The position numbers were made by a program, and so were the translations under genes. The notes under the pieces are model-generated. The model worked only from the letters and a program-made list of their open reading frames with translations, did no database searches and was not told where the DNA came from. Positions 15,248-29,563 of a stretch of 35,838 nucleotides of DNA are shown here, piece by piece (position 1 is the stretch's first letter; each line of letters starts with the position of its first letter). The DNA comes from Planctomycetales bacterium (GTDB lineage Bacteria > Planctomycetota > Planctomycetia > Isosphaerales > Isosphaeraceae), in assembly GCA_027459775.1 (NCBI GenBank), contig DAIDHE010000140.1, positions 1-35,838 of the forward strand, written 5' to 3'.

Positions 15248-16603
15248 TTAGACGGCCGGGAGTTCGTATCCCACACGGGGCTCGCGCGCAAGCAGTTGAT
15301 TGGCCTCGTGATCGCCCCTGATAGTCTCGGTGACCACGTCCCACTCGAGCTTGCGGCCGACCTTGTAGGCGATGTTGCCCAGGTGGCAGGTGTTGGTCGA
15401 GCGGTGGGCAATCTCGATATCCGAGGTCGGCCGGGCGCGCGATTTCATGCAGTCCAGGAAGTTGCGGACATGGGCGTTCTGCCCGTCCACCCCTTTGGCC
15501 GTCTGGTGTTTGAGATTGATCTTGCGGATCGGCCGATCGCCGTGGGCGCTCTTGATCCCGTAGGGCAGGACGACGGTGTCGGGGATGACCTCGAAGCCCG
15601 ATCGATCGAGCATCAGGCTGCCGTCGGTTCCGCAAAAGAGGATGCCGTAGTCGTGGCCGTTGAGCTTGAGCCCGTTCCCCTTGTGCATCGAGTAGGTCAG
15701 GGTGCAGCCGGGGAATTCATAAACGACCTGGAGGGTGTCGGGGGTGTCGCGGTCGTCTTCGGTGGTGCGGACGCCGCCCGAGGCGTAGACCGAGGCCGGC
15801 CCCTTGGCGTCAAGCGCCCACAGGACGATGTCGTTCAAGTGGACGCCCCAGTCGCTCATCATTCCGCCGGCATAGTCGAAATACCAGCGAAAGAGCAGGT
15901 GAAACCGATTCGGATTGAAGGCATGCTTGGGGGCCGGGCCCAGCCAGCGATCGTAATCGACGTACGAAGGGGCCTCGGCGTCCGGGTATTTGCCCATGCC
16001 GACAGGGCTGATGTTTTCATAGTTCCATGTCTGCACCCAGAAGACCTTGCCGAGCTGTCCCGACTTCACGATCTCGACGGCCTTCTGGAAATGGGTCGAC
16101 GACCGTTGCTGGGTGCCGACGGCCATGATCTTGTTGGTCTTGCGAGCGGCCCGGATCATCGCCTGGCCCTCGGCGACGTTGTGACCAACTGGTTTTTCGA
16201 CATAGACGTCCTTGCCCGCCAGCACGGCCTGAATGGCCGGCAGGGCGTGCCAGTGGTCGGGGGTGGCGATGATGACGCCGTCGAGATCCTTGCGATCGAG
16301 CATGGCGCGATAATCGCGGGCCGTTGTGGGATCGTTTCCCTTGGCCTTCTTGACGCGTTCGGCGGTCTCGCCGGCGTGGTGGTCGTCGACGTCGGCGATG
16401 GCGACCAGGTCGACCTCGGGGATGGGTAGGAACGAATCGAGCAGTTGATTGCCACGACTCCCCGCGCCGATGATTCCGAGCCGCACCCGCTCGGCGGCCG
16501 ACCCGGCCCGCGCCACCGCGGGCGCTCCCAGGACCGCCCCCGCGGCCGCCGTCGCCAGTGCGCCTTCCCCAAACAAACGCCGCGTGATGGATTCGCCGTG
16601 CAT
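15248..16603 (-). CDS. TAT-exported Gfo/Idh/MocA family oxidoreductase
   Basis: A 451-residue NAD(P)-dependent oxidoreductase with a twin-arginine signal (ITRRLFGEGALATAAAG, residues 6-22), so it should be exported folded. The Rossmann loop is GIIGAGSRGNQ (46-51 core), the family motif EKP lies at 136-138, and the C-terminal domain has YFDYAGGMMSDWGVHLNDI. Such enzymes oxidise or rearrange sugars and inositols. Exported versions are abundant in planctomycetes and are usually linked to glycan breakdown. The ATG at 16603 is chosen because GGGAG lies eight bases before it and the TAT signal begins there. The frame is open further upstream without protein-like sequence. It heads a two-gene unit with the small membrane protein. 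Confidence 0.93.
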   Translation of the reverse strand: MHGESITRRLFGEGALATAAAGAVLGAPAVARAGSAAERVRLGIIGAGSRGNQLLDSFLPIPEVDLVAIADVDDHHAGETAERVKKAKGNDPTTARDYRAMLDRKDLDGVIIATPDHWHALPAIQAVLAGKDVYVEKPVGHNVAEGQAMIRAARKTNKIMAVGTQQRSSTHFQKAVEIVKSGQLGKVFWVQTWNYENISPVGMGKYPDAEAPSYVDYDRWLGPAPKHAFNPNRFHLLFRWYFDYAGGMMSDWGVHLNDIVLWALDAKGPASVYASGGVRTTEDDRDTPDTLQVVYEFPGCTLTYSMHKGNGLKLNGHDYGILFCGTDGSLMLDRSGFEVIPDTVVLPYGIKSAHGDRPIRKINLKHQTAKGVDGQNAHVRNFLDCMKSRARPTSDIEIAHRSTNTCHLGNIAYKVGRKLEWDVVTETIRGDHEANQLLAREPRVGYELPAV

Positions 16604-16748
16604 CACAATCGCTCCCCCGAGGTGATTCGACCCCAATCCGCGCCAGCCCTCGAATGTAACGGAGCCCGGCTCTGAGTGCCAGAGGCAGGGTGGGTCGAGC
16701 AGAGCGCGGCTCACCCAAGAGCTCGCGCCCCCAATCCAATCACCCGAG

Positions 16749-16777
16749 TTGACGCTCTGGCGGGCGAGGGTTAGGCT
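16749..16777 (+). promoter_or_regulatory. Candidate promoter for the HlyD-like gene
   Basis: TTGACG (16749-16754) and TAGGCT (16772-16777) are separated by 17 bases. The -35 box is strong and the -10 box weak. It lies about 85 bases before the ATG at 16865, in the 261-base gap between divergent genes. Confidence 0.3.
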
Positions 16778-16864
16778 AGTTTGTTCCTGTTCGTTCCGCG
16801 CATGTTGCTCAAAGCGTGACCTTTCCACCGCATCCTGCGTCCCGGCCTCCATGGGGGCTTGATC

Positions 16865-18040
16865 ATGATCAAGGCGACGGGTTGGCTGCTCGCGCTTGTT
16901 GTGTTCGCCGGGGTTGGCCGCGCCCAGGCGCCCGCGACCCAGGCGCGGATCGAAACCGCTCCGATCGAGCTCGTCGCCCCCGAGCGATATCAGTTGAGCG
17001 AAGTGCTCGAGCCGGTTCGCAAGGTCACCCTGATCGCGCCCGAGGACGGCGTGATCCGCGGGCTGAGCGCGCACCTGGGCCAGGTCGTGCGCGAGGGTGC
17101 CGAGCTCGCCGAGCTCGACCGCAACGAAGCCCTCGCCCGCGTCAAGATCGCGGCCGCCGCCGTCAAGGAAAAACAGGCCCTGCTCGACAGCAAGACCGCC
17201 GACCCCACCGTCGTGCGCTATCAGCTCGAAGAAGCCGAGGCCCGCGCTGAGCTCGCGCGGATCTTGCTTGATCGATGCACTCTTAAAGCCCCTTTCGCGG
17301 GCCTGATCACGGCCGTCCCCACGACGATCGGCCAGTTCGTCCTGAAGGGGACCGTGATCGCCGAGCTCGCCGACGTCTCGAGCCTGAAGACGCGGCAGCC
17401 GATCGATCGTCGCAAGGCCGCCGTGGGGGGCAAGCTGACCCTCGAGATCGAGGACCAGACCGTCGAGGGGACGATCCAGGCCGTCGTCCCGTTACCCGAC
17501 GATTACGTGGTGCTGCGCGAACTCGCGACGCCGTTCGCCCTGGCGTGGGTGTCGGCCCACAATCTCAAGGGAGATCTCGTGCCCGGCCTGCGGGTCCGCT
17601 CGGCCAGCGTGCCCCGTGCGCCGATCGCCGTCGTGCCCAAACCGTCGATCAAACACGACGATCGCGACTCGGCCGGCGGCGCCATGGTCCAGGTGATTCG
17701 TAACGAATACGTGGTGAACGTACCGGTCCAGATCCTGGGCGAGGTCGGTCCCGAGCGGATGCAGATCACGGGCGCATTTCGGGGCGCTGATTCGCTGGTG
17801 GTGGCGTCGTCTTCACCGCTCTTGGCGGGGACTCTGGTGCGATTTGGCGGCGGCGCTCGAGGAGTCGAGGGAACCGCGCCCAGCCCGCACCTGGGAGGCT
17901 CGACCGCGACCCTGGGCGCGCCGGGTGGAAACGCCGTGATCTCCGGCGGCGGCAGCCCCCCCCCAGGCAGCGTGCCGCCCGCATCCTCGCGCCGCAGGCC
18001 CGGAAACCAACCCCGGACAGGCTCGAACGCCCCGTTCTAG
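16865..18040 (+). CDS. HlyD-like periplasmic adaptor protein
   Basis: A 391-residue protein with a signal peptide (TGWLLALVVFAGVGRAQA) and the lipoyl/hairpin layout of membrane fusion proteins: a first half-lipoyl segment with APEDGVIRGLSAHLGQVVREG, a charged helical hairpin (about residues 80-135), and the second half with KAPFAGLITAVPTTIGQFVLKGT. A beta-rich region and a glycine/proline-rich disordered tail (from about 320) follow. Such adaptors bridge an inner-membrane transporter to an outer-membrane channel. No RND, ABC or TolC-like partner gene is present nearby, so its partner must be encoded elsewhere. ATG 16865 has GGGGG eight bases upstream. An upstream TTG (16859) is in frame but less likely. 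Confidence 0.8.
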   Translation: MIKATGWLLALVVFAGVGRAQAPATQARIETAPIELVAPERYQLSEVLEPVRKVTLIAPEDGVIRGLSAHLGQVVREGAELAELDRNEALARVKIAAAAVKEKQALLDSKTADPTVVRYQLEEAEARAELARILLDRCTLKAPFAGLITAVPTTIGQFVLKGTVIAELADVSSLKTRQPIDRRKAAVGGKLTLEIEDQTVEGTIQAVVPLPDDYVVLRELATPFALAWVSAHNLKGDLVPGLRVRSASVPRAPIAVVPKPSIKHDDRDSAGGAMVQVIRNEYVVNVPVQILGEVGPERMQITGAFRGADSLVVASSSPLLAGTLVRFGGGARGVEGTAPSPHLGGSTATLGAPGGNAVISGGGSPPPGSVPPASSRRRPGNQPRTGSNAPF

Positions 18041-20893: not shown

Positions 20894-21760
20894 GTGGACG
20901 CGACTCGCAACGGCGAAACGATTTCGACCGCCGGGCGCGAACCTCTGGGAGGGCTCGAAGAGGTGTGGCGACAGCGCTTTGGACTCGAGAAAGATCCGTT
21001 CCACGAGCATGCGCCCCCGTTCGTGGCCTATGACGGGGCTCGCGAGGCCGTCGACCGTATGGTTCGCGCGCTCGAGGCGGTCGAGCCCCGGATCGTGGTC
21101 GCCGGCGAGTGCGGGGCGGGCAAGACGACGGTGCTCGCGCGCGCCCTCGCCCTTTCCCGACGGCCCGGCCAACGGGTCGCGGCCCTGACCGGCGCACGCG
21201 ATCGTGAGGCTCAGCTCGCGCTTCTGGCGCGGCGGCTGGGGACCAGAGCTTCCCTCGGAACTCCGCTACCAGACCCCTGGGCCACGCTCGATCGTGCGCT
21301 CGCCTCGGCCGCCCTCGACCGCGCGCGACTGGTCGTGGCGATCGACGATGCTTCACACGATCACAATGGTTTTCGTTCATGGATCGATGGACTCCTTCGC
21401 ATGAGCGCCCGCGCCGGCGTGCCGCTTTCGATCGTCGAGACGCTGCGAATCGATGCCGATTCGTTCGCGCCGGCTCTCGATTGGCCCTGGACCAGCGAGT
21501 TTCTCCGGATCGCGCCCTTGACGCGAGACGAGGCCGAACGGTTCGTGACGGCCAAGCTCGCGGCGGCGGGCTGCTCGTCGGCTCTATTCACCCCGCGCGC
21601 CATCACCCGGCTGCATGGCCTGGCTACCGGCGTGCCCCGACGAATCGAGCGGCTGGCGGGGGCGAGTCTGCGCGCGGCCGCCGAACAGGGGCTGGAGATC
21701 GCCGCCGCCGAAACCGTCGACGCGGCCGCGGCCCGCGAGTTCGAGCCGGCGCTTTCTTGA
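20894..21760 (+). CDS. ExeA-like AAA ATPase
   Basis: A 288-residue soluble ATPase. The N-terminal FGLEKDPFHEHAPPF segment is typical of ExeA/GspA-type ATPases. Walker A is GECGAGKT (residues 71-78) and Walker B LVVAIDDA (146-153). A C-terminal helical part with GLATGVPRRIERLA matches the lid region of the AAA_22 group. Members act with secretion systems or transposons, or are orphans. No secretin, peptidoglycan-binding or transposase gene is adjacent, so the partner is unknown. GTG 20894 is the only reasonable start and its ribosome-binding site is weak. Confidence 0.8.
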   Translation: MDATRNGETISTAGREPLGGLEEVWRQRFGLEKDPFHEHAPPFVAYDGAREAVDRMVRALEAVEPRIVVAGECGAGKTTVLARALALSRRPGQRVAALTGARDREAQLALLARRLGTRASLGTPLPDPWATLDRALASAALDRARLVVAIDDASHDHNGFRSWIDGLLRMSARAGVPLSIVETLRIDADSFAPALDWPWTSEFLRIAPLTRDEAERFVTAKLAAAGCSSALFTPRAITRLHGLATGVPRRIERLAGASLRAAAEQGLEIAAAETVDAAAAREFEPALS

Positions 21761-21866: not shown

Positions 21867-23135
21867 ATGCCATCCACACGACGAGCCTTTCTGGTCGGGA
21901 CGGCGCAGGCGATCGCCCTGAGCGGTCGATCGCGCGCCGAGAACCCGCGGCCGAAAGTCGCCGCCATCATCACCGTTTTTCATAAGTATTCGCATTCACA
22001 ACATATCATTGATCGATTTCTGGAGGGCTACGGCTGGGAAGGAGGACATCATCGCCCTCCCTTCGACGTTGTCTCGCTGTATGTCGATCAGGTCGGCAAG
22101 AACGACCTCAGCCGCGAGCGCGCTTCGCGGCATCCGGAAATGAAGATCTATCCAACCATCGCTCGAGCTTTGACCATGGGCGGGCGTAAGCTCGCCGTCG
22201 ACGGCGTCTTATTGGTCGGCGAGCACGGCCGCTACCCGGCGAACGAGCTCGGCCAGACTCTCTATCCGCGCTACGAATTCTTCGAGCAAGTCGTCGACGT
22301 CTACAACGCGAGCGGGAAGACCGCGCCCCTCTATAACGACAAGCATCTCTCGTGGAGCTGGGACCACGCGCGGGAGATGGTCGACACGGCCAGGACGATG
22401 GGCTTTGGCCTGATGGCGGGTTCCTCGCTCCCCGTGACCTGGCGCCAGCCCTCGATCGACGTGCCCCTGGGGGCCGTCGTGGAAGAGGCGATGGGCGTCT
22501 GGAACGGCAGCGTGGATGGCGGCGACATTCACGTGATCGAGGCGGTCCAATCGCTGGTCGAGCGCAGACGCGGCGGCGAGACCGGCGTCCGCGCCGTGCA
22601 GGCCCTCGCCGGCGAGTCGTTCTGGAAAGCGCTCGAGTCGGAAAGCTGGGAGGGGGGAGGCTGGGACAAGCGGCTCTTCGAAGCCTGTCTTTGCCGGAGT
22701 CATCAGCTCAAGCCAGCCAGGGCGACCTATGGACATGTCTTGCCATCGATCGAGGATCTCAAGCGGCTCGCGCCCCGATCCCGCGCCTATCGCTTTGAAT
22801 ACAACGACGGCCTCAAGGCCAGCATCATCGAGCTCGACGGCGGCATGGTCGGCGATTGCACGGCCGCCGTCCGGCTCGCGGGGGGCGAACGGCTCTCGCT
22901 CTTGTTTTACCTGCCCTATTACACCATGCGAAATTTTTTCAGCCCCTTGGTTCATCATATCGAGACGTTCTTTCTTACTGGCAAGCCCCCCTATCCGATC
23001 GAGCGAACGCTGCTCACCACCGGGATGACCGCGAGCGCGGCCGCGGCGCTATCCCAGAAGCCGAATCGGCTCGAAACGCCCCACCTGGCGATCAGGTACT
23101 CACCCCCCGCCGAATCCACGTATTGGAGATCGTGA
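21867..23135 (+). CDS. TAT-exported protein, degenerate Gfo/Idh/MocA-like (copy 1)
   Basis: A 422-residue protein with a twin-arginine-like signal (STRRAFLVGTAQAIALSG). It is clearly paralogous to the next gene: both share DVVxLYxDQ, VDGVxxxxEHGxYPxN, LYPRxEFFEQVV, YNDKHLS and AGSSLPVTWR. The order of elements resembles the Rossmann half of Gfo/Idh/MocA proteins. There, VDGVLLVGEH matches the usual VDxVxIATP strand and YNDKH (156-160) stands where EKP normally lies. The glycine-rich NAD loop is missing (VAAIITVFHKYSHSQH). I infer a degenerate, possibly NAD-free relative. The function is unknown. The ATG at 21867 begins the TAT signal. The next gene starts directly after the stop. Confidence 0.8.
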   Translation: MPSTRRAFLVGTAQAIALSGRSRAENPRPKVAAIITVFHKYSHSQHIIDRFLEGYGWEGGHHRPPFDVVSLYVDQVGKNDLSRERASRHPEMKIYPTIARALTMGGRKLAVDGVLLVGEHGRYPANELGQTLYPRYEFFEQVVDVYNASGKTAPLYNDKHLSWSWDHAREMVDTARTMGFGLMAGSSLPVTWRQPSIDVPLGAVVEEAMGVWNGSVDGGDIHVIEAVQSLVERRRGGETGVRAVQALAGESFWKALESESWEGGGWDKRLFEACLCRSHQLKPARATYGHVLPSIEDLKRLAPRSRAYRFEYNDGLKASIIELDGGMVGDCTAAVRLAGGERLSLLFYLPYYTMRNFFSPLVHHIETFFLTGKPPYPIERTLLTTGMTASAAAALSQKPNRLETPHLAIRYSPPAESTYWRS

Positions 23136-24386
23136 ATGCTCACTCGCCGAACCTTCCTGGGGGCCGTCGCCGCGGCCCCGCTCGCCGCGGGCGCAGCCCG
23201 CGCCGCCGACCCCGCTCGCAAGAAAATCGCGATCGTCGCCACCGTCTGGACCTATCTTTCCCACGCCCAGCACATGGGCGACCGGTTTCTGGTCGGTTAT
23301 CCCCGCGACGGCGAATGGCACAAGCCGCCCATCGATGTGGTCGCGCTTTATCTCGATCAGAAACCGGAAAACGACCTGGGCGCCAAGCGAGCGGCCGAGC
23401 ACGGCTTCAGGGTCTACGAGACCATCGCCGAGGCCCTGCGATTGGGCGGGCCCAAACTGGCCGTCGATGGGGTCGTGATCATCGCCGAACATGGGAACTA
23501 TCCCCGGAACCAGAAGGGGCAGATCCTCTACCCGCGCTTCGAGTTCTTCGAGCAGGTCGTGAAGGTGTTCGAGCAAGACGGCCGCTCGGTTCCCGTCTAT
23601 AACGACAAGCATCTGTCGTACAGCGCCCAGAAGGCCGCGCGGATGGTCGCGGACTCGAAGCGCTTGAAGTTCCCGTTCCTGGCGGGTTCGTCGCTGCCCG
23701 TCACGTGGCGCTTGCCGCCCGTCGAGATTCCCCACGGCGCGGTGATCGAGGACGCGCTCATGGTCGGCGTCGGCGGGTCCGACGCCATGGATTACCACGC
23801 GCTCGAGGCGATGCAGTGCATGGTGGAAAGGCGCAAGGGGGGCGAGACGGGGATCAGGTCGGTGCAGTTGCTCGAGGGCGACGCCGTCTGGAAAGCCGGC
23901 GACGAAGGCGTCTGGTCTCGGCGGCTGCTCGAGGCCGCGCTTTCGCGCAGCGATTCCTTGCTGGGGCTTTCCGACCTGGATTCGCGGCCCCAGGATCTGG
24001 CCCATAACGGCGAGCTGCCCCGGCTGGCGAAGAAGCCGGCGGCCTACATCATCGAACGACGCGACGGCTTGCGAACCACGCTGCTCATGCTCGACGGGGC
24101 GCTCCAGGATGACAATTTCGCGGCCCGGCTCGAAGGCGGGCGAATCGTGTCGACGCAGTTCTTCCTGCCGCCGAATCCCAACGTCGCCTACTCGGCCTGC
24201 CTGGTCTCGGGGATCGAGGACATGATCGTGACGGGACGCGCGCCCTATCCCGTCGAACGCACCCAGATCGCCAGCGCCATGCTCGACCGCCTGCTCGATT
24301 CCAAGGTCGACGGACACCGCCGGATCGACACGCCCGACCTCGACATTCATTATCGCGCGCCCAGGGAATCGCGATTTGGCGGGTGA
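23136..24386 (+). CDS. TAT-exported protein, degenerate Gfo/Idh/MocA-like (copy 2)
   Basis: A 416-residue paralogue of the preceding gene, with its ATG directly abutting the TGA of copy 1 and GGAG seven bases upstream, so the two are surely co-expressed. It has a good TAT signal (LTRRTFLGAVAAAPLAAGA). The strand IAIVATVWTYLSHAQH again lacks GxGxxG. VDGVVIIAEHGNYPRN and YNDKHLS (155-161) occupy the positions of the ATP/EKP motifs of Gfo/Idh/MocA enzymes. The C-terminal half has LDGALQDDNFAARLEGG and FLPPNPNVAYSACL and differs more from copy 1. Two diverged copies suggest a heteromer or different ligands. No function is known to me. Confidence 0.82.
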   Translation: MLTRRTFLGAVAAAPLAAGAARAADPARKKIAIVATVWTYLSHAQHMGDRFLVGYPRDGEWHKPPIDVVALYLDQKPENDLGAKRAAEHGFRVYETIAEALRLGGPKLAVDGVVIIAEHGNYPRNQKGQILYPRFEFFEQVVKVFEQDGRSVPVYNDKHLSYSAQKAARMVADSKRLKFPFLAGSSLPVTWRLPPVEIPHGAVIEDALMVGVGGSDAMDYHALEAMQCMVERRKGGETGIRSVQLLEGDAVWKAGDEGVWSRRLLEAALSRSDSLLGLSDLDSRPQDLAHNGELPRLAKKPAAYIIERRDGLRTTLLMLDGALQDDNFAARLEGGRIVSTQFFLPPNPNVAYSACLVSGIEDMIVTGRAPYPVERTQIASAMLDRLLDSKVDGHRRIDTPDLDIHYRAPRESRFGG

Positions 24387-24428: not shown

Positions 24429-25691
24429 ATGCATGAACAGACGCCACGCGGTAACACGACGGGACCGACCTCAATGGATCGCCGAGGATTCCTGGCCGGC
24501 GTCGGTTTGACGCCGTTCCTGGCCTGCGCACGGGCGTGGGGTGGGGAGGAGCCCAGGCCGGCTCGATTGCTCTTTACCTCGGGCGGTGAAACCGGTTTGG
24601 TGAACGCCGATGGCGGCGGCCTTCGCTACTTTCATTTCGACAAGCCGGGCCAGGCGACCTGGCAACCAGCCGCCGTTTTCCCCGACGGCCGACGGGTGCT
24701 TTTTCTGAGTATGGAACCGCGCCGCGACGGACCAGGACGGCCGTTCGAGGAGTACTACACCCAGACGCCGACGCACCTCTGGATCCACAACCTCGAGACC
24801 GGTTCCCTGGACGAGATCTGTACGCGGGATCGGCTGGCCCCGTTCGTGACGCCCGCGCTTCTGCTCGGTGACGACCGGCTCCTGGTGCAGGTCGTGCGGA
24901 ACAAGCTCGGGCAGATTTTCAGCGTTCGTCTCGACGGCGGCGACCCACGCGAATTCACCCGCGCCGGCGAGGGGCTTCCCTATGGGCTGAGCAAGAGCCC
25001 CGACGGCCGCCGGGTCGCCTTCCATCTCGCGAGCCCGCGCGGCTACGAAATCTGGTCCAGCGATCCCGACGGCACCCACCGGCTCCGCATCGCCGCGCGC
25101 CCGGGCAGCCTCTATTTTGGCACGAGCTGGTCGTCAGACGGGCGCTGGATTCTCTATGTCGACTGCCACTCCGGTGAAGACCCGGGTCACGACTGGGCCG
25201 ACGTTTGCATCGGCCGCGCCGACGGCGGCGAGCGCCGCGTGCTAACGACCGGCCAGTCGATGTGGTTCGCGGCGACCTATGGAGGACCGAAAACGCGCGG
25301 AGGCGGATCGAACACACCCGCCTGGACGCACGACGGCGCCATCCTTTTTCCGCGACGCCTGCCGGGTTCCAAGATCCCCTGGGAATATCAGGCGGGTCGC
25401 CCCGACGTCGACCACTTCAACCGCGATTTTAAGCCCGAGCTCGCTCGCGGCGGAGTTGAGGTCTGCCGGCTGGATCCGCGCGACGGACGCACGGTCGCCC
25501 TCACCGAGAGCAATCCGCCGGTCTGGGATTTCCGCGCCAGCGAATCGCCCGATGGCAGGCATGTCGCTTTTTGCCGTGCGAAAACCGGTGAGCCCCCGGC
25601 GATCTGGGTGATGGATTCGGACGGCCGCAACCCTCGCCTGATCACGCGTGGGATCGACGACCGGGGCGCGGATCACCCGAGGTGGCTTTGA
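24429..25691 (+). CDS. TAT-exported TolB/PD40-like beta-propeller
   Basis: A 420-residue protein with a TAT signal (MDRRGFLAGVGLTPFLACARA, beginning at residue 16). It is built of beta-propeller blades of the PD40/TolB type: SPDGRRVAFHLA, SSDGRWILYVDC, THDGAILFPRR, SPDGRHVAFCRA and VMDSDGRNPRLITRG. Propellers of this kind bind ligands or proteins. Some are oligogalacturonate-lyase-like, but no catalytic set is visible. It starts 42 bases after copy 2 and is probably in the same transcript. ATG 24429 has AGGGG eight bases upstream. ATG 24474 would place the TAT motif at the very N-terminus and is a real alternative. Confidence 0.8.
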   Translation: MHEQTPRGNTTGPTSMDRRGFLAGVGLTPFLACARAWGGEEPRPARLLFTSGGETGLVNADGGGLRYFHFDKPGQATWQPAAVFPDGRRVLFLSMEPRRDGPGRPFEEYYTQTPTHLWIHNLETGSLDEICTRDRLAPFVTPALLLGDDRLLVQVVRNKLGQIFSVRLDGGDPREFTRAGEGLPYGLSKSPDGRRVAFHLASPRGYEIWSSDPDGTHRLRIAARPGSLYFGTSWSSDGRWILYVDCHSGEDPGHDWADVCIGRADGGERRVLTTGQSMWFAATYGGPKTRGGGSNTPAWTHDGAILFPRRLPGSKIPWEYQAGRPDVDHFNRDFKPELARGGVEVCRLDPRDGRTVALTESNPPVWDFRASESPDGRHVAFCRAKTGEPPAIWVMDSDGRNPRLITRGIDDRGADHPRWL

Positions 25692-25849: not shown

Positions 25850-25925
25850 ACGGAACCGGTCGTGGCGGCGGGCGAATGGCGCAAGACCGTCGAGGGCGCG
25901 GGTTGTTTCAAGGTTGAGCGGCGGA

Positions 25926-27299
25926 ATGCGGCGGATCGATTGTTCCAGGGACGACGCGGCCCAGGAAATTGCTCGCTTGCGAGCGGAGCTCGGGCCCAAG
26001 GGCAACGTGGTCAGCCCCGAAGGTCGGGCTCGGACCATCCAGGCGTTCGGCGAGCCGCTTTCACCCCCCCAGGTGGTCGAGCGGATCTGCGAGGACGTGG
26101 CCGCCCGCGGGCTCGAAGCCGTCGTCGATTACACCCGGCGACTCGACGGCCGAACCCTCGAGCCCGCCGAGATCAAGGTCGACCGCGCGGAGCTCGAGGC
26201 CGCCCACCGCCAGGCCGGCCCGGCGTATCTCGAGACAATCGCTCGGGTTCGTGACAATATCCTGACCTATCAGCGGGCCATTCTGCACCAGAACGTCGCG
26301 CTCGAGCCCCGGCCCGGGATCGGCCTGGGCATGCTCTATCGCCCGCTCAGGCGCGTGGGCGTATGCGTGCCCGGGGGCGCTGCCGCGTATCCGTCGAGCC
26401 TGCTCATGACCGTGGTGCCCGCACAGGCCGCGGGAGTCGCGGAAATCGCCGTGATCGCACCCCCCACGCCGCTCGGGGGATATAACACCGACCTCCTGGC
26501 CGCTTGTCATTCACTTGGCATCACGGAAATCTACCGCATCGGCGGCGCCCAGGGAGTGGCCGCGCTCGCGCACGGCGTCCCGGAACTGGGCCTGCGCCCG
26601 GTCGACAAGATCGTCGGGCCGGGGAATCTTTTCGTCGCACTCGCCAAACGGCACGTCTACGGCCTGGTCGACATCGACAGCATCGCGGGCCCGAGCGAGG
26701 TCGTCGTGATCGCCGACCATACCGCCCATCCAGCGCATCTCGCGGCCGATTTGATCAGCCAGGCTGAACACTCGCCGGGCTCGAGCATCCTCATCTCATG
26801 GAGCGGCGAGCTCCTGGACCAGACGGAGCGCGAGATCGAGCGCTTGCTCGGCAGGCTCGAGCGGGGCGCGCTCGCGCGGGCGAGCCTCGAGCGGTTCGGG
26901 GCGCTCATCCAGGCTCGGAACGAGGACGAGGCGGTCGAACTGTCGAACCTGATCGCGCCCGAGCATCTACAAGTGGCGACGGCCGAACCGCGGCGACTGC
27001 TCGAGCGGCTGACGGCGGCGGGTGCAATCTTTTTGGGGCCTTATTCGCCCGTTGCGGCCGGCGACTATGCCGCCGGACCGTCGCACGTCTTGCCCACCGG
27101 AGGGACGGCGCGGTGGGCTTCGGGGCTTTCGGCCAATGACTTCCTCAAGCGGACGAGCGTGATCGAGCTCGACCGCGCGGGGCTGGCGGCGCTCGCGCCC
27201 GACATCCGTTTGCTCGCCGACAAAGAGGGACTGTCCGCTCACCGGCTGAGCGTCGACATTCGACTGGAAAACCGCACGGGAGATCAAGCCCATGGCTGA
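25926..27299 (+). CDS. hisD: Histidinol dehydrogenase
   Basis: A 457-residue cytoplasmic zinc enzyme that oxidises L-histidinol in two NAD-dependent steps to L-histidine, the last stage of the pathway. The zinc ligands are visible as Gln279 and His282 (SQAEHSP), Asp380 (AGDYAAGPSHVLPT) and His439 (LSAHRLSV). The catalytic Glu346-His347 pair is in APEHLQV. VGPGNLFVALAKRHVYG and DSIAGPSEVVVIAD are family hallmarks. ATG 25926 is chosen over TTG 25914, which adds four residues. Both ribosome-binding sites are weak. It overlaps the acetyltransferase gene by eight bases and heads the hisD-GNAT-hisC-hisB cluster. Confidence 0.96.
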   Translation: MRRIDCSRDDAAQEIARLRAELGPKGNVVSPEGRARTIQAFGEPLSPPQVVERICEDVAARGLEAVVDYTRRLDGRTLEPAEIKVDRAELEAAHRQAGPAYLETIARVRDNILTYQRAILHQNVALEPRPGIGLGMLYRPLRRVGVCVPGGAAAYPSSLLMTVVPAQAAGVAEIAVIAPPTPLGGYNTDLLAACHSLGITEIYRIGGAQGVAALAHGVPELGLRPVDKIVGPGNLFVALAKRHVYGLVDIDSIAGPSEVVVIADHTAHPAHLAADLISQAEHSPGSSILISWSGELLDQTEREIERLLGRLERGALARASLERFGALIQARNEDEAVELSNLIAPEHLQVATAEPRRLLERLTAAGAIFLGPYSPVAAGDYAAGPSHVLPTGGTARWASGLSANDFLKRTSVIELDRAGLAALAPDIRLLADKEGLSAHRLSVDIRLENRTGDQAHG

Positions 27300-27840
27300 A
27301 GCCGACTCGGGAGAATCGCTCACTTTCACGATTCGACCGGCCAGGCCCGCGGATGCGCAAACCCTGGTGAACCTGGTTCACGAGCTGGCCGTCTATGAAC
27401 GGTTGGAGGCCCAGGCGCTGGCGACGGCCGACGACTTTCGCCGCCATTTGTTTGGACCCCAACGGGCGGCCGAGGCGGCCCTGGCCGAGATCGACGGCAA
27501 GCCGGTCGGGTTTGCCATCTGGTTCTCGACCTTTTCCACGTTTCGAGGTCAACCGGGTCTCTATCTCGAGGACGTTTTCGTGTCTCCCGAACATCGCGGC
27601 CGGGGCATCGGCCGGGCGCTTTTGGCGACCGTGGCGCGACTGGCCGTCGACCGTGGCTGCGGCCGGCTCGAATGGTCCGTGCTCGACTGGAACATCCCCT
27701 CGATCGCCTTCTACAAGGGCCACGGCGCACGGCCGATGGACGACTGGACCGTCTTTCGCGTCGACGAGGGGGATCTCTTGCGACTGGCCGAGACGCCGGA
27801 AGCGGTCCGTATCGCGGGAACCGAAAAGGACCGCCCATGA
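27292..27840 (+). CDS. GNAT family N-acetyltransferase
   Basis: A 182-residue protein with the acetyl-CoA binding motif HRGRGIGRALL after LEDVFVSPE and the C-terminal WNIPSIAFYKGHGA motif. The overall pattern is closest to diamine/spermidine acetyltransferase-like GNATs (ARPADAQTLVNLVHELAVYE). Its ATG lies inside the end of hisD (eight-base overlap) and its TGA overlaps the hisC ATG by four bases, so it is locked into the histidine cluster by translational coupling. A role in histidine biosynthesis is not established. It may acetylate an amine or amino acid of the pathway, or simply be a passenger. Confidence 0.9.
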   Translation: MAEADSGESLTFTIRPARPADAQTLVNLVHELAVYERLEAQALATADDFRRHLFGPQRAAEAALAEIDGKPVGFAIWFSTFSTFRGQPGLYLEDVFVSPEHRGRGIGRALLATVARLAVDRGCGRLEWSVLDWNIPSIAFYKGHGARPMDDWTVFRVDEGDLLRLAETPEAVRIAGTEKDRP

Positions 27841-28886
27841 GCCGGTTCGTTCAGCCCCACATCCAGGCGATGCAGGGCTACATCCCCGGCGAACAACCGC
27901 GGGGTGTGGGGTTTATCAAGCTCAACACTAATGAAAACCCCTTTCCTCCCTCGCCTCGCGTTTTCGAGGCCCTGACCGCCTCGATCGGCGACCGGCTCAG
28001 GCTGTATCCCGACCCGGTCGCGACCGAGTTCCGCAAGACGGCGGCGGCCTTGCACGGCGTCGAGCCCGACATGATCCTGGCCGGCAACGGATCGGACGAC
28101 CTGCTCACGATCATCACCCGCGCCTTCGTCGGGCCGGGCGATCGGGCGGCGTTCGCATCTCCCAGCTACCTCCTCTATTCAACGCTCGTCTCGCTTCAGA
28201 ACGGCCGGACGGCGGTCGTTCCGTACGGACCCGGCTGGTCGCTCGACGCAGGCTCGTTCCTCGGGCAAGGATTCAAGTTGGCGTTTTTGGCCAATCCCGA
28301 CAGCCCCTCGGGGACCGTTCAGCCCCGCGCCTGGATCGCCGAGCTGGCCGGCCGCCTGGACTGCCCCCTGGTGGTCGACGAGGCGTACGCCGATTTCGCC
28401 GACCCCGACGGGCATGCGATCCCGCTCATCGCCGATCACCCAAACGTGATCGTCACGCGCTCGTTCAGCAAGGGATACAGCCTGGCCGGGCTGCGGCTGG
28501 GCTATGCGATCGCCCGCACCGAGGTCGTCGCCGAGCTCATGAAGATCAAGGACTCGTATAATTGCGACGCCTTGTCTCAGGCAGCCGGTATCGCCGCTCT
28601 GCGCGACCAGGAACATCTCGCCCAGAACCGGGCGAGGATCCTGGCAACCCGGCGGCGGCTGACCGACGCCCTTCGCGGCATGGGTTACACGGTCGACGAG
28701 AGCGCTGCCAATTTCGTGTGGGCGACGGGGGGACGGCCGGCCCGCGAAACGTTCACCTGGCTCAAGGAACGGCTGGTTCTGGTCCGGCTCATGAGCTATC
28801 CCGGATTCCCCGAGGGACTGCGGATCACCGTCGGGACCGATCACGAGATCGACCGACTGCTGGAATTGCTCCGCGAGATCCCTTGA
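27837..28886 (+). CDS. hisC: Histidinol-phosphate aminotransferase
   Basis: A 349-residue PLP enzyme of fold type I that converts imidazole-acetol phosphate and glutamate to histidinol phosphate. [13 protein letters not shown] is the N-terminal substrate motif, NPDSPSG binds [12 protein letters not shown] holds the conserved Asp and Tyr, and Lys212 in [14 protein letters not shown] forms the Schiff base. The length fits the family. ATG 27837 overlaps the previous stop as ATGA. The upstream in-frame extension (from 27672) overlaps the GNAT gene and is not part of the protein. Confidence 0.95.
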
Positions 28887-28913
28887 GCGAGCATCGCCCA
28901 ATTCCGCTACAAT
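28883..28913 (+). promoter_or_regulatory. Candidate internal promoter before hisB
   Basis: TTGAGC (28883-28888) overlaps the hisC stop and TACAAT (28908-28913, five of six) follows after 19 bases. The spacing is slightly long. Transcription would start near 28920, about 47 bases before hisB, and could uncouple hisB and the membrane gene from hisD. Confidence 0.4.
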
Positions 28914-28966
28914 CGGCCGCTCCGGTGAACCTGGAGGCCGGCTTCTTTTCGCAGGGGACTTTCGCC

Positions 28967-29563
28967 GTGAACCCGACGCCTCGCTCGAGCGAGATCAGCC
29001 GGACCACTCGTGAGACCAAGATCGCGCTCGAGCTCTCGATCGACGGCCAGGGTCGGGCCCGGGTCGCAACCGGGATCGGCTTTCTGGACCACATGCTCGA
29101 GCTTTTCGCCCGGCATGCGCTCGTGGATCTGACGGTGGAATGCGAGGGCGACCTGCGCGTCGACGGGCACCACACGACCGAGGACGTGGGGATTTGCCTG
29201 GGGCAGGCCATCGACCGGGCGCTCGGCGACCGGGCGGGAATCAGGCGTTACGGACACGCGGTCCTGCCGATGGACGAGACGCTGGTGACGGTGGCCGTCG
29301 ATCTGGGAGGCCGGCCGTTCTGGGTCTGGAATGCGACGATGCCGACCGCGAAGATCGGGGATTTCGACAGCGAGCTGGTGGCCGATTTCTGGCAGGCGGT
29401 CGCCACCCACGCGCGGATGAATTTACACGTGAATGCCCACTATGTCCGCAATTCCCACCACCTGAGCGAGGCGATTTTCAAGGGGGCCGCGCGGGCGCTT
29501 CGCGACGCGATGGAGCTCGATCCCCGGTCGAGCGAGATCCCCTCGACGAAGGGGACGCTCTAA
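28967..29563 (+). CDS. hisB: Imidazoleglycerol-phosphate dehydratase
   Basis: A 198-residue monofunctional dehydratase that converts imidazole-glycerol phosphate to imidazole-acetol phosphate, the substrate of HisC. Both manganese-binding motifs are present: [10 protein letters not shown] (HHTTED at residues 68-73) and [12 protein letters not shown] (HHLSE at 164-168), together with [13 protein letters not shown]. There is no phosphatase domain, so the histidinol-phosphatase is encoded elsewhere. GTG 28967 is chosen because it gives the normal N-terminus ([12 protein letters not shown]) and AGGGG lies nine bases upstream. An upstream GTG (28925) is in frame. The flippase-like gene begins directly after its stop. 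Confidence 0.95.

Follow-up and report, generated by a model that had tools for sequence, protein, structure and literature searches.

The Gfo/Idh/MocA proteins form a large group that is considered to be NAD(P)-dependent, and the locus described here raises the question of whether two adjoining genes encode proteins that use the fold of this group without its classical dinucleotide site. The window, the whole stretch of DNA that was analysed, comprises 35,838 nt of contig DAIDHE010000140.1 from a Planctomycetales bacterium (GCA_027459775.1). An earlier note, made from the sequence alone, had proposed that these genes encode divergent, exported and perhaps cofactor-free relatives of Gfo/Idh/MocA enzymes that work as a pair.

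Organization and paralogy of the two genes

The two genes are located as follows.

21867..23135, + strand: gene A (P0001, 422 aa), the first partner, a TAT-signal protein with a predicted Gfo/Idh/MocA-like fold
23136..24386, + strand: gene B (P0002, 416 aa), the second partner, a TAT-signal protein with a Gfo/Idh/MocA-like fold according to AlphaFold and Foldseek

B begins with its ATG immediately after the TGA stop codon of A (23133-23135), without a gap. The deduced proteins are paralogues with 45% identity over 398 residues (E 3e-116), which is far above chance. VDGVxxxxEHG, LYPRxEFFEQVV, YNDKHLS and AGSSLPVTWR occur in the same order in A and in B, and a twin-arginine motif is present at both N-termini (RRAFL and RRTFL). 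The abutting arrangement, the four shared motifs and the TAT signals described in the earlier note were thus confirmed for both genes. B scored 15.7 bits with the NCBIfam TAT model, slightly below the cut-off of 16.7, and Pfam TAT_signal matched 25 of 110 homologues. A Pfam search assigned no family and an NCBIfam search no curated name to A or B, and a PDB sequence search with B alone gave no match.

Predicted fold of the proteins

An AlphaFold2 model of B was built on an alignment of 110 homologues (mean pLDDT 94.0, pTM 0.90). It contains a two-domain fold, with an N-terminal Rossmann domain and a C-terminal alpha/beta domain. When this model was compared with the PDB by Foldseek, all 50 of the 50 matches listed were of the Gfo/Idh/MocA type and aligned across both domains, with identities of 9-14% and TM-scores by target length of 0.50-0.67. 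The best match was GenD2 (6nor, E 2e-13), followed by inositol dehydrogenases and glucose-fructose oxidoreductase (GFOR). The structure search therefore supports the proposed Gfo/Idh/MocA fold and did not give an unrelated one, the outcome that the note had named as speaking against it. For A, the same fold is predicted from its homology to B and from the A half of the model of a fused homologue described below.

The A/B proteins share with Gfo/Idh/MocA proteins (PF01408/PF02894/PF22725; 3nt2 myo-inositol dehydrogenase, 6nor GenD2 and 1h6d GFOR) the overall two-domain fold, the succession of strands and motifs, an aligned catalytic lysine and, probably, the second-domain His; GFOR is also TAT-exported, like the TAT-signal proteins of the window. 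On the other hand, A/B lack GxGxxG and EKP, have other invariant loops and show no Pfam match: PF01408 matched neither A nor B nor any of the 110 homologues. Furthermore, Gfo/Idh/MocA proteins are homo-oligomers, whereas A/B consist of two paralogues that form an apparent heterodimer. The sulfoquinovosidases (8qc5-8qc8, 8zn9), which are NAD-dependent glycoside hydrolases, have the same fold and are among the best structural matches; they contain NAD in their solved structures, whereas A/B lack the motif.

The window also contains a genuine Gfo/Idh/MocA gene on the minus strand (ORF 15248-17074; PF01408, E 4.5e-18) with both GxGxxG and EKP, in agreement with the earlier note. BLAST of its product against A and B detected no similarity. 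The genome to which the window belongs (G000) carries 38 Gfo/Idh/MocA genes and four members of the A/B family.

Putative active site residues and loops at the classical NAD(P)-binding places

The sites considered here are listed below.

22221..22229, + strand: EHG of gene A (residues 119-121), where the fourth strand ends
22338..22346, + strand: DKH of gene A (residues 158-160), aligned with EKP
23241..23264, + strand: first loop of gene B (residues 36-43, TVWTYLSH), at the place of GxGxxG
23487..23495, + strand: EHG of gene B (residues 118-120)
23604..23612, + strand: DKH of gene B (residues 157-159), aligned with EKP so that K158 corresponds to the catalytic lysine
23796..23798, + strand: H221 of gene B, a conserved residue proposed as the counterpart of the second-domain catalytic His of inositol dehydrogenases, with D216 and D219 nearby

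A profile of the family matched the Gfo/Idh/MocA protein 6z3b at E 1e-3, and FNDKHLS was aligned to FCEKPIA. Comparison by hhalign with 12 genuine Gfo/Idh/MocA proteins from the same genome gave E 0.0014 over the whole length and E 9.3e-5 for the Rossmann half, with the same DKH/EKP register; the second domains alone gave no significant alignment. The lysine of EKP is one of the K-D-H catalytic residues of the Gfo/Idh/MocA family (PMC5969746). According to these alignments, the lysine is kept, Glu is replaced by Asp, and Pro is replaced by His. The earlier statement that YNDKH replaces EKP was thus correct as to the position, but the lysine remains in register and the active site is thus partly retained. 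Both the Gfo/Idh/MocA-type fold and the lysine register were established by computation with high confidence. Since the second-domain sequence alignment was insignificant, it is from the order of structural elements that H221 and D216/D219 may be taken as the classical second-domain His/Asp.

H43, E118, H119, D157, K158, H159 and H221 were each present in 107-109 of the 110 homologues (K158 in 108, H221 in 109), and D216 and D219 are conserved. A divergent family with a conserved His/Asp/Lys set, as had been supposed, was therefore found. Classical members bind NADP through the loops that follow strands 1, 2 and 4 (PMC9795676). The corresponding places in the A/B family are occupied by near-invariant residues, namely (in B numbering) T36, S42 and H43; Q75 and D80; and E118, H119, G120 and Y122. 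The absence of GxGxxG from A and B was extended to 231 homologues, none of which had GxGxxG in its first loop or EKP at the position aligned with DKH; homologues with these motifs intact were what the note had named as contrary evidence.

Judged by sequence, the classical NAD site is absent from the A/B family, and the loops agree with the suggestion that the proteins are cofactor-free. NAD may nevertheless be bound by a Rossmann domain that lacks GxGxxG. NAD(P) binding by A and B would fit the in-register lysine, the overall Gfo/Idh/MocA fold, the TAT signal and the acidic residue ending the second strand (LYxDQ), which is the ribose-binding place in NAD enzymes. However, it is rather unlikely in view of the missing glycine-rich loop (0 of 231 homologues), the invariant S42-H43 at the helix start in the first loop, the fourth strand that ends in EHG instead of TP, and the failure of PF01408 to match any of the 110 members.

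From their places at the strand ends, the conserved residues would form one pocket. It is conceivable, but quite improbable, that H43, E118, H119, D157, H159 and H221 bind a metal ion in the place of NAD and that the proteins are a metal-dependent lyase or epimerase; several invariant His and acidic residues at strand ends are in keeping with such a site, whereas similarity to a known metalloenzyme was not found.

Pairing of A and B across phyla

A scan of GTDB genomes with B alone yielded 106 relatives, and the best 80 of these 106 were taken to define loci. Nearly all of the genomes are MAGs, and by the phylum names in their records the loci belong to about eight phyla, namely Planctomycetota, Verrucomicrobiota, Acidobacteriota, Poribacteria, Latescibacterota, Chloroflexota and Gemmatimonadota, with one record labelled Actinomycetota. 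Among the best 80 loci, one was at a contig edge, two were fused, one (L050) had no A gene, and 76 had A upstream. Thus, A precedes B in 76 of the 77 testable unfused loci, and the two genes are no more than 150 bases apart in 72 of those 76; whether the pair is always tandem had been raised as a check in the earlier note. In the two Chloroflexota loci, A and B constitute one 810-residue ORF with a linker. In a phylogenetic tree, A and B formed separate groups with the same phyla in each, and the fused halves fell into A and B, respectively. In this tree, the A/B duplication predates the phyla sampled.

To model a fused homologue, 19 readings were aligned that were either natural or in-frame across A-stop-B. 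These replaced single A and B rows, all of which had landed on the second half of the protein. The model had a pTM of 0.86 and a disordered linker. Two freely hinged domains of such size are expected to give a pTM of about 0.5. The observed value is above that of loosely tethered halves, and therefore a defined arrangement of A and B is predicted. The natural fusion and this pTM argue for a complex, and a physical heterodimer is likely. Together with the gene order and the tree, the fusions and the fused model bear out the view that A and B work as a pair, and we regard the pair as a functional unit with high confidence.

In G133 and G064, the B-position gene overlaps an intact A-like gene; H43 is changed to P, EHG is lost, and DKH is changed to AGR or VGD. 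The same losses were seen, again next to an intact A, in a B-position ORF of G305, the first third of which is out of frame. The loss of these cleft residues together, with the B gene kept, is as expected if they make up one site and the partner is needed as a subunit. The three B-position partners without the cleft residues are located at L013:2685-3758, L026:345-1520 and L224:349-1485; in the L224 ORF the first third is in another frame, owing to a MAG error or decay.

TAT signals and predicted export

In a pattern-based search of the 76 pairs, TAT signals were found on neither partner in 30 pairs, on both in 22, on A only in 14, and on B only in 10. After doubtful cases were dropped (L088 and L111 as chance matches, L051 as marginal, and L075 as truncated), 12 A-only and 8 B-only pairs, 20 in total, carried a signal on one partner. 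Both partners of the window pair carry one. Export as the common function of the family, as the earlier note had suggested, was rejected, as both partners lack a TAT signal in about 30 of the 76 pairs. Because these pairs have no signal and others have one or two, export is, as far as the signal patterns indicate, a lineage trait and not intrinsic to the pair.

Signals on one partner, on either side, would fit the carriage of a folded heterodimer. Heterodimeric hydrogenases and formate dehydrogenases are known to use such hitchhiker export (PMC10924467), and as in those Ni-Fe hydrogenase and formate dehydrogenase complexes, the signal is on one partner in the 20 A/B pairs. Unlike in those complexes, the signal-carrying side of A/B varies by lineage, and in many pairs either both partners or neither partner has a signal. 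Few lineages supplied the single-signal pairs, which perhaps represent four or five events. In Planctomycetes and some Acidobacteria, the TAT system would export the folded pair, with one partner at times taking the other along, and in other phyla the pair would stay cytoplasmic.

Substrate hints and gene neighbourhood

Single-gene members of the family are abundant, and one genome may contain as many as 11 family members. Three genomes, all from one planctomycete class, encode single-gene members (at L028/L196, L218 and L220) that are fused at the C-terminus to PF06439 (3-keto-disaccharide hydrolase); this domain was detected by Pfam in one of them (E 2.1e-43), and the others are strongly similar to that one. 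PF06439 proteins cleave 3-keto-glycosides (PMC9007349). The fusions point to sugar chemistry for the family, a link that comes from the single-gene relatives and not from the A/B pair. They suggest the same kind of substrate as in the 3-keto-glycoside pathway with DUF1080/PF06439 (3-ketotrehalose hydrolase BT2157; LacABC with CCNA_01705; PMC9007349), but the A/B proteins are neither PF06439 nor LacABC proteins and the A/B pair has no PF06439 fusion. The abundance of Gfo genes in these genomes also counts against the sugar link.

Gene neighbourhood was rejected as a pointer to the substrate, as no neighbour is common across phyla. Poribacterial pairs are accompanied by MBL-fold, VOC and PhyH genes, pairs elsewhere by creatininase, DHDPS, SDR or amidohydrolase genes, and the neighbours of single-gene members are also mixed. 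In the window, the following gene may be associated with the pair.

24429..25691, + strand: P0003, a TAT-type beta-propeller protein (PD40 repeats), directly 3' of the pair

Close homologues of P0003 follow the pair in Singulisphaera GP187 (L037) and lie beside the pair in L041 (phmmer E 2e-218 and 8e-179, respectively), and these were the only two other loci with one. The family relatives at L014 and L030 are fused to N-terminal propeller-like segments.

The Gfo/Idh/MocA fold has a non-catalytic use in Gal80. A and B might similarly be a sugar sensor, carrier or chaperone that perhaps acts together with the beta-propeller protein encoded next to them. The presence of P0003, the propeller-like segments of relatives and the persistence of B partners without cleft residues are in line with such a role, but it seems improbable; the cleft residues are 97-99% conserved across phyla, more strictly than simple binding would lead one to expect, and fusions to a hydrolase domain occur among the relatives.

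Several other genes were recorded. A homologue with 32% identity is encoded at 12001-13176 of L143 (AP014720.1, a conjugative Arthrobacter plasmid); genes with the annotations phosphoenolpyruvate phosphomutase and phosphonopyruvate decarboxylase lie about 8 kb away. In Verrucomicrobia-type loci, a gene of about 265 aa without a Pfam match lies directly upstream of the pair (L045:3924-4724 and its relatives in L036, L040 and L043). Upstream of the pair in the window, the gene at 20894-21760 resembles an XrtA/PEP-CTERM-associated ATPase (NCBIfam TIGR03015, E 4.9e-12, below the cut-off), and 25914-29563 contains histidine genes in a row (HisD, HisC-like aminotransferase and HisB-type IGPD).

Proposed mechanism and significance

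We consider that there is an even chance that the A/B proteins represent a branch of the Gfo/Idh/MocA fold that functions as a heterodimer and probably uses (keto)sugars as substrates without binding NAD in the classical way. A and B would be the two subunits of a heterodimer derived from two anciently duplicated copies of the fold. Each subunit keeps the lysine with which the fifth Rossmann strand ends (EKP to DKH) and probably the second-domain His/Asp, which constitute the proton-transfer part of the classical K-D-H site, and the classical NAD(P)-binding loops have been rewritten (T36, S42-H43; Q75, D80; E118-H119-G120-x-Y122-P). The substrate bound in the cleft may be sugar-like, with a keto-sugar of the 3-keto-glycoside type as the most likely candidate, and K158/H221 and the added His/Glu/Asp residues would perform acid-base chemistry there (an isomerisation, a hydration or an elimination) that uses no dinucleotide bound in the classical manner. 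This keto-sugar chemistry is put forward tentatively, at appreciably less than an even chance. Doubtful in its entirety is the wider picture of ancient, multi-phylum heterodimeric enzymes that exchanged the dinucleotide for an invariant His/Glu/Asp site of a new kind, perhaps containing a metal, took up non-redox keto-sugar chemistry, and in some lineages turned one subunit into a non-catalytic scaffold.

No paper linking the A/B fold with Planctomycetes was found. The A/B family is present as a pair in about eight phyla by record labels and has no Pfam model. The fusion of its relatives to 3-keto-disaccharide hydrolase means that the family may provide a step, as yet unassigned, in a glycan pathway that was recognised recently, and the loss of cleft residues in some B partners makes a division of labour directly testable. 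A conserved and widespread pair that shares the fold and the lysine but lacks the NAD motif would provide a test case for a dehydrogenase scaffold turned to other chemistry.
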